A program made the position numbers and the translations under genes. A stretch of DNA of 64,000 bases from Halomarina litorea (GTDB taxonomy: Archaea; Halobacteriota; Halobacteria; Halobacteriales; Haloarculaceae), in assembly GCF_024227715.1 (NCBI RefSeq), contig NZ_CP100448.1, forward strand, positions 1,488,001 through 1,552,000. The letters run 5' to 3'. Every line of letters begins with the position of its first letter. The first letter of the stretch is position 1. Positions 28,058-29,283 of the stretch are shown here, one piece after another. The notes below the pieces were generated by a model that had not been told where the DNA came from, did not search any database, and saw only the letters and a list, made by a program, of their open reading frames with translations.

Positions 28058-28579
28058 ATGTACCGGGCTATCCTCGTGCCGACGGACGTTCACGAGAGCG
28101 AAGCTCTCGTGAGCCAGCCAGAACCGTCACGTTCTGGTGACGGGAGCGACCCCGCGCGGGGGGCGCTGGACCACGCCATCGACCTCGCGGGGCAGTACGG
28201 CGCGTCGCTGCACGTCCTCTTCGTCGTCGACACGCGGGCGATTCCGGCCAGCCCCCACGCGGACGACGTCGTCGCGGCCATCCGGGCGGTCGGCGAGGCG
28301 GTGACGGACGAGGCCGTCGCCGTCGCGACCCGGGCGGGAGTCGAGTGCGTCGGGTCCATCCGGGCGGGCGTCCCCGCCTCTGAGGTCATCGACTACGCCG
28401 CCGACCACGACGTGAACCTCGTCGTGATGGGCACGCACGGGCGGACCGATCTGCGGCGCTACCTCCTCGGGAGCGTCGCCGAACGCGTCGTCCGCGAGTC
28501 GCCCGTGCCGGTCCTGACGGTTCGAGGGGACGGCCCGGACGGTGGCGGCCCGGGGACCCCCGCCGGGAGGGGGGCGTGA
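28058..28579 (+). CDS. universal stress protein with an 18-residue insertion
   Basis: A 173-residue UspA-domain protein. It begins [10 protein letters not shown], where the family normally continues with GSD. Here 18 residues ([18 protein letters not shown]) stand between VPTD and [16 protein letters not shown]. The ATP-binding motif near the end, [21 protein letters not shown], is intact. The insertion is encoded by 54 nt made almost entirely of two palindromes, and it keeps the frame, so it behaves like an inserted repeat rather than a natural loop. It falls in the loop after beta-1, where ATP binds. The protein may still fold. A second modified USP lies 380 nt downstream on the other strand. 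Confidence 0.88.
28088..28141 (+). repeat. 54-nt in-frame palindromic insertion inside the USP gene
   Basis: It consists of two adjacent hairpins. The first is TCACGAGAGC-GAA-GCTCTCGTGA (10-bp stem); the second is CCAGAAC-CGTCAC-GTTCTGG (7-bp stem). The element ends in GAC, repeating the GAC that precedes it, which may be a short target duplication. Length is divisible by three and the codons are all sense codons, so the gene remains open. No transposase is nearby. Confidence 0.7.
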
Positions 28580-28959: not shown

Positions 28960-29283
28960 TCAGACCGGGAGGACGGGGACCTCCGAGAGTCGGATGACGC
29001 GGTCGGTGACGCTCCCGATGTGGAGGCGCGCGACGCCGCCCGCCCCGCGGCGACCCATCACGGTGAGGTCGACGTCGTGGTCGGCGGCGAACGACAGGAT
29101 GGACTCGTAGGGTGAGCCACGCAGGCAGTGGGTCTCGACGGTGACGCCCGCCGCCACGACGGCGTCGAGGGCGGACTGGCCGCGTTCCTCCCACGCCTCC
29201 AGCGCGAGTTCGAAGCTCCCGGGCGCCGGTGTCATCCCGTAGCTCTCGTCAACGTCCGTCGGTACGAGGATGGTTCGGTACAT
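28960..29283 (-). CDS. universal stress protein shortened by internal deletion
   Basis: A 107-residue UspA-domain protein; complete relatives usually have 135-150 residues. It starts MYRTILVPTDV and then continues with DESYGMTPAPGSFELALEAWEERG, which in other USPs comes only after the first helix and second strand. About 30 residues (helix 1 and strand 2) therefore seem to be missing. The C-terminal ATP-binding block GRRGAGGVARLHIGSVTDRVI is intact. Reading around the break point resembles the insertion point of the neighbouring USP (CCGACGGACGTT followed by ACGAGAGC in both). The start is the ATG 18 codons inside the longest open frame. Confidence 0.85.
   Translation of the reverse strand: MYRTILVPTDVDESYGMTPAPGSFELALEAWEERGQSALDAVVAAGVTVETHCLRGSPYESILSFAADHDVDLTVMGRRGAGGVARLHIGSVTDRVIRLSEVPVLPV

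Follow-up and report, generated by a model that had tools for sequence, protein, structure and literature searches.

A probably mobile palindromic DNA element of the Halobacteriales lies in frame within haloarchaeal protein-coding genes

A universal stress protein (USP) gene of Halomarina litorea carries a 54-nt insert of two hairpins that keeps the reading frame. The insert is very probably one copy of a non-autonomous mobile palindromic element of the Halobacteriales, the genic survivors of which lie mostly in frame. Its copies are dispersed at unrelated sites, the insertions are precise, the pairing of the stems is conserved and the genic copies are biased towards the sense orientation and a single frame. 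The dispersal, together with empty sites in related genomes, suggests that the element is mobile.

Results

A two-hairpin insert in a universal stress protein gene

The window analysed is a stretch of 64,000 nt of the H. litorea genome (contig NZ_CP100448.1, positions 1,488,001 to 1,552,000), and coordinates without a contig name are positions within it. The host gene, the insert and a related short match were located as follows.

28058..28579, + strand: USP host gene, 173 aa including the 18-aa insert (Pfam PF00582, Usp, E 5e-32)
28087..28088, + strand: CG direct repeat, left copy, formed by the last base of the target flank and the first base of GTT (family-wide dinucleotide test)
28088..28141, + strand: two-hairpin element GTT...GAC, 54 nt or 18 in-frame codons (covariance model; missing in homologues)
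28090..28112, + strand: hairpin 1, TCACGAGAGC-GAA-GCTCTCGTGA, with 10-bp arms at 28090-28099 and 28103-28112 and a 3-nt loop (co-varying pairs among copies)
28113..28117, + strand: linker joining the hairpins, GCCAG in the USP copy and AGCCAA in most type A copies
28118..28137, + strand: hairpin 2, CCAGAAC-CGTCAC-GTTCTGG, with 7-bp arms at 28118-28124 and 28131-28137 and a 6-nt loop (comparison with the 55-nt copy L114)
28141..28142, + strand: CG direct repeat, right copy (family-wide dinucleotide test)
29242..29253, - strand: short match GTTGACGAGAGC directly after VPTD in a neighbouring shortened USP gene (28960-29283, - strand; sequence and translation, below the scorable length for the model)

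The original prediction had described two hairpins with 10-bp and 7-bp stems, placed in frame between the VPTD and GSD of the USP, and the coordinates and translation agree with this, the 18 codons containing no stop. The insert is 54 rather than 55 nt long because hairpin 2 is one base below its usual 21 nt. Folded as single-stranded DNA, it reached -16.6 kcal/mol (z -5.3), which none of 200 shuffled sequences equalled, and the covariance model of the family scored it at 70.6 bits (E 1.5e-26 within the window). Homologues had been expected to have no residues at this site, and none of the 14 aligned USP homologues from Halomarina genomes has any. Matches to the USP obtained by tblastn across the genus start downstream of the insert, with one exception (36%, from residue 5), and the alignment to PF00582 begins at residue 28. 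The alignments to PDB entries for this protein and for the Nth protein discussed below also begin downstream of the insert and added little. The conserved motif of the host USP is retained in the homologue alignment despite the insert. The AlphaFold model (mean pLDDT 82.9) showed the USP fold with confidence and the insert at a pLDDT of ~50. This suggests that the insert is a flexible segment in the loop after strand 1 and that the USP fold is intact.

The neighbouring shortened USP gene translates as MYRTILVPTD-VDES-YGM, and the 12 nt of GTTGACGAGAGC within it equal the 5' arm of the element. The match could be an element remnant, left perhaps by insertion and deletion. A 55-nt copy (L114, C1:371702-371757), 89% identical over the whole element, occupies the same site in a second USP gene of H. 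litorea; this copy breaks the frame, and its USP gene is shortened. The three USP genes affected at one site suggest a hot spot or gene conversion. Elsewhere in the genome, a thioesterase-like gene (C1:2929165-2929395) contains two differing copies, L118 and L120, ~115 nt apart, and its frame is broken.

The element belongs to a family confined to Halobacteriales in the genomes searched

The original prediction had proposed a search for further copies in related genomes, and a covariance model was built from 25 copies; the genome-wide counts given here come from searches with such a model. It found 25-28 copies in the H. litorea genome and 858 copies over 96 Haloarculaceae genomes, of which 85 were positive, while BLAST with the element DNA found copies in 41 of these 96. 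In a sample of the phylum, 39 of 43 Halobacteriales genomes were positive and none of ~204 other genomes was. A strict scan for the exact pattern in 84,980 species genomes returned halobacterial records only. A plasmid peptide search with the 21-aa consensus gave no match. Spread by viruses was rejected as an explanation, the exact pattern being unmatched in IMG/VR and absent from the phage records.

The general layout of a copy is GTT-hairpin 1-linker-hairpin 2-GAC. Among 143 copies from 13 genomes, lengths ranged from 45 to 59 nt, stems were mostly 9-10 bp and loops mostly 3 nt. Two kinds of copy are common: type A, which is 55 nt long, has the linker AGCCAA and is mostly intergenic, and 57-nt forms with the linker AGC(C/T)AACC or TCGCACACC. 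Changes on both sides of a pair were seen in 14 of 20 stem pairs, in an alignment that was partly chosen by perfect stems and so leans towards structure.

Genic copies are mostly in frame and in the sense orientation

Most sampled copies are intergenic, and ~20% are genic. Most of such a haloarchaeal genome is coding, so that this small genic share would fit a loss of most insertions into genes. For the genic test, a codon model trained on the window scored both flanks of each of the 143 copies, and the open reading frames were then read. There were 23 copies in frame and 5 that break the gene, the 23 being partly non-independent (one DUF460 site occurs in three species, and two of the genes are Rieske-like). 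The automatic test supplied 15 of the in-frame set, of which L167 was dropped as uncertain, and reading of the frames with Pfam supplied the remainder. All 23 are in the sense orientation and use a single reading frame with GTT as the first codon, giving a peptide close to D-VRESxxDSRANQNAERSGD-G. In-frame copies are in excess (23 of 28 genic copies), since a length divisible by three was found in only 44 of 110 other copies (Fisher p 6e-5).

By Pfam, the host genes include those for Nth, a nucleoside phosphorylase-type enzyme, a pyridine nucleotide-disulphide oxidoreductase, a Hef-like helicase, a P-type ATPase, DUF460, threonyl-tRNA synthetase (ThrRS), an FAD oxidoreductase, an amidohydrolase, GNAT, a DEAD_2 helicase, an amino acid kinase and S9 peptidases. 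In three Halomarina species the DUF460 gene is occupied at one shared position (L142, L182 and L196) by inserts with stems that are quite different in sequence and still pair.

Selection acting on the peptide would be the simplest explanation for the bias in strand and frame, because the frame used gives a polar sequence and the sequences from the other frames are more hydrophobic or basic. The host protein would go on working if the peptide is polar and flexible and lies in a surface loop, and the intact predicted folds and conserved host genes suggest that the peptide is harmless.

The element sits between 2-bp repeats at precise junctions

Checks against orthologues and homologues covered the USP, Nth and ThrRS sites. 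The Nth site is filled in H. litorea and is an exact empty site, TACGG(C/T)-GG, in 7 Halomarina relatives. The ThrRS site is filled in one genome (G055) and empty in 7 relatives, again with exact junctions. These precise empty sites in orthologues, and the in-frame copies in unrelated conserved genes, uphold the proposal of a small mobile palindrome resembling those of Rickettsia.

The left junction dinucleotide is identical to the right one in 81 of 94 non-redundant copies (CG 71, TG 6, CA 3, TA 1), against a mean of 60.7 and a maximum of 70 in 5,000 shuffles. A purine (A or G) precedes the repeat in 120 of 143 copies. The element thus appears to sit between 2-bp YR repeats, which are either a duplicated target or a crossover core. 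L118, L119 and L279 fall outside this rule, their left junction reading GG and their right junction TG. The right-end tag, read inward, is CGTC in 106 and TGTC in 6 of the 143 copies. In the original prediction, the GAC at both ends of the USP insert was taken for a target duplication. A repeat does exist, but it extends over only 2 bp (CG here), and the rest of GAC is the conserved end of the element; the right end keeps GA regardless of the sequence flanking the left end, which rules out GAC as the duplicated unit.

Head-to-tail arrays of two to four differing subtypes, with joints of the form GA-CG-TT, occur in two genomes (G063, L261-L264, L269 and L271; G227, L254 and L255), suggesting that the element's own end serves as a target. 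Another sequence also recurs at the junctions: GCTGTATC directly adjoins L162, L163, L171, L188, L193 and L276, as well as L123 in the opposite orientation, and it is the reverse complement of GATACAGC seen near TnpB elements. With both orientations present, the ends of TnpB elements look like a recurrent target.

Discussion

A mobile palindrome inserted by an enzyme acting in trans

We propose that the element core is TT-hairpin 1-linker-hairpin 2-GA, ~50-57 nt long and lying between 2-bp YR repeats (usually CG) that usually follow A or G. A transposase or recombinase acting in trans would recognise the hairpins and insert the element where the target reads R-YR, and the 2-bp repeat would be either a product or a prerequisite of this step. 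Most genic insertions would then be lost, and the survivors would be those with a length that is a multiple of three, in the frame giving a polar, flexible peptide in a surface loop. The search for a mobilising enzyme gave no candidate in H. litorea, where the count of Y1_Tnp is 0, and a resident transposase beside the copies was rejected, as the neighbouring genes are mostly housekeeping ones and only 5 of 116 are OrfB_IS605.

A possible, though doubtful, alternative is that the element is a terminal-only (PATE-like) derivative of IS200/IS605, moved by a Y1 TnpA acting on single-stranded DNA hairpins. Haloquadratum walsbyi has 52-bp terminal-only PATEs that are possibly mobile (PMC3119063), copies of the present element lie within IS605-type left ends and next to TnpB genes, and copy number correlates with the Y1_Tnp count across genomes (Spearman 0.43). 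Against this, IS605-type left ends exist both without the element (L144 and L145) and with it (L147), which indicates that the element went into them and rules them out as its sole source. The 2-bp YR repeat also differs from the behaviour of PATEs and IS605, which have no target duplication (PMC3119063). Y1_Tnp is absent from the H. litorea genome itself, OrfB_IS605 is rare among the neighbouring genes, and at least 10 copies occur in each of seven genomes that lack Y1_Tnp.

It is improbable that the element is instead a functional RNA or DNA structure, such as a processing site, terminator or regulator, selected at each place, with the coding copies serving a purpose. In favour of this reading, pairing of the stems is kept although their sequences differ, and the hairpins still form at the DUF460 site common to three Halomarina species. 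A function at each place is harder to reconcile with copies in or near many unrelated genes, with copies that break genes, and with the empty sites in sister species at both orthologous positions checked (Nth and ThrRS); a search of Rfam also gave no match to the element. Short palindromes abound in GC-rich haloarchaeal DNA, but ordinary variation in USP loop length or a chance palindrome has a negligible probability and is refuted by the copies elsewhere, given the 89%-identical whole-element copy in a second USP gene, the 25 copies genome-wide, the fold z-score of -5.3 and the lack of the insert in every aligned homologue.

The mobile palindromic element may be placed in a wider setting, for which we see the arguments as evenly balanced: an order-wide family of protein-embedding mobile palindromes in Archaea, not described before and inserted by an enzyme with a 2-bp YR duplication. 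If this is true, a single type of mobile DNA has carried the same peptide motif into dozens of unrelated proteins of haloarchaea, and essential enzymes are among them. In-frame palindromic elements in proteins have so far been documented chiefly in Rickettsia and a small number of other bacteria, and they are now seen throughout the Halobacteriales, so such behaviour can arise in GC-rich, free-living archaea. These organisms are genetically tractable and offer a setting for studying how the elements are mobilised and how proteins acquire new peptides. The motif also accounts for unusual insertions in many gene models of haloarchaea.

Comparison with known systems

The original prediction knew of no such elements in haloarchaea, and the literature searched, which reached few subscription journals, likewise did not describe in-frame palindromic elements from any archaeon. 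The nearest haloarchaeal descriptions are the SMRs and PATEs of Haloquadratum, small transposase-free repeats without target duplications (PMC3119063). SMR-A are ~110 bp long with inverted terminal repeats and also insert into near-terminal IS605 palindromes (PMC3119063). Going by these descriptions, the present element appears to be set apart from SMRs by its length of 45-59 nt, its lack of long inverted terminal repeats and its 2-bp repeat, and from PATEs by the 2-bp YR repeat and insertion into IS605 ends, although it may be identical to some of these repeats. Unlike the present element, neither SMRs nor PATEs are described as in-frame peptides.

REPINs are hairpin pairs that form a mobile unit tagged at both ends and dispersed without a transposase of their own (PMC3116915). 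The haloarchaeal element shares the hairpin-pair unit, the tags at both ends and this mode of dispersal; it differs from the REPIN/RAYT system in that its tags are CGTT/CGTC rather than GTAG, genic copies are common and no associated RAYT was found, the H. litorea genome having no Y1_Tnp.

Rickettsia palindromic elements (RPEs) are short palindromic repeats within existing open reading frames that leave the frame unbroken and add a peptide (PMC3767692). The haloarchaeal element resembles them in entering reading frames, keeping the frame and adding a peptide, as seen in the 23 in-frame against 5 gene-breaking copies and in the orthologue alignments. Compared by description, RPEs are 100-150 bp long and occur in Rickettsia and Wolbachia, whereas the haloarchaeal copies are 45-59-nt double hairpins, occur in Halobacteriales and are mostly intergenic. 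CGTC at one end is a further likeness, shared with RPE-4 and RPE-6, which are CGTC repeats (PMC3733652).

The CGTC-tagged REP dimers (Di Nocera 2013) have an unpaired CGTC, TGTC or CCTC at one end. The haloarchaeal element is like them in its CGTC (sometimes TGTC) end, in a first pair that is A-T in many of its copies, in its two joined hairpins of unlike sequence (heterodimers) and in having intragenic members, and no dedicated transposase is known for either. These REPs were described from bacteria, and haloarchaea are unmentioned in the text of the paper (PMC3733652). They have stems of 8-9 bp, loops of 4-5 nt and a CCA tail; in contrast, the haloarchaeal element has stems mostly of 9-10 bp, loops mostly of 3 nt and TGG or TTGG on that strand, and its other end is CGTT. 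The 2-bp YR repeat, which in the haloarchaeal element includes the CG of its CGTC tag, offers a concrete clue to the transposase that is missing for CGTC repeats. By their end tags, the haloarchaeal element and the bacterial CGTC-tagged REPs and RPEs may share a mechanism.
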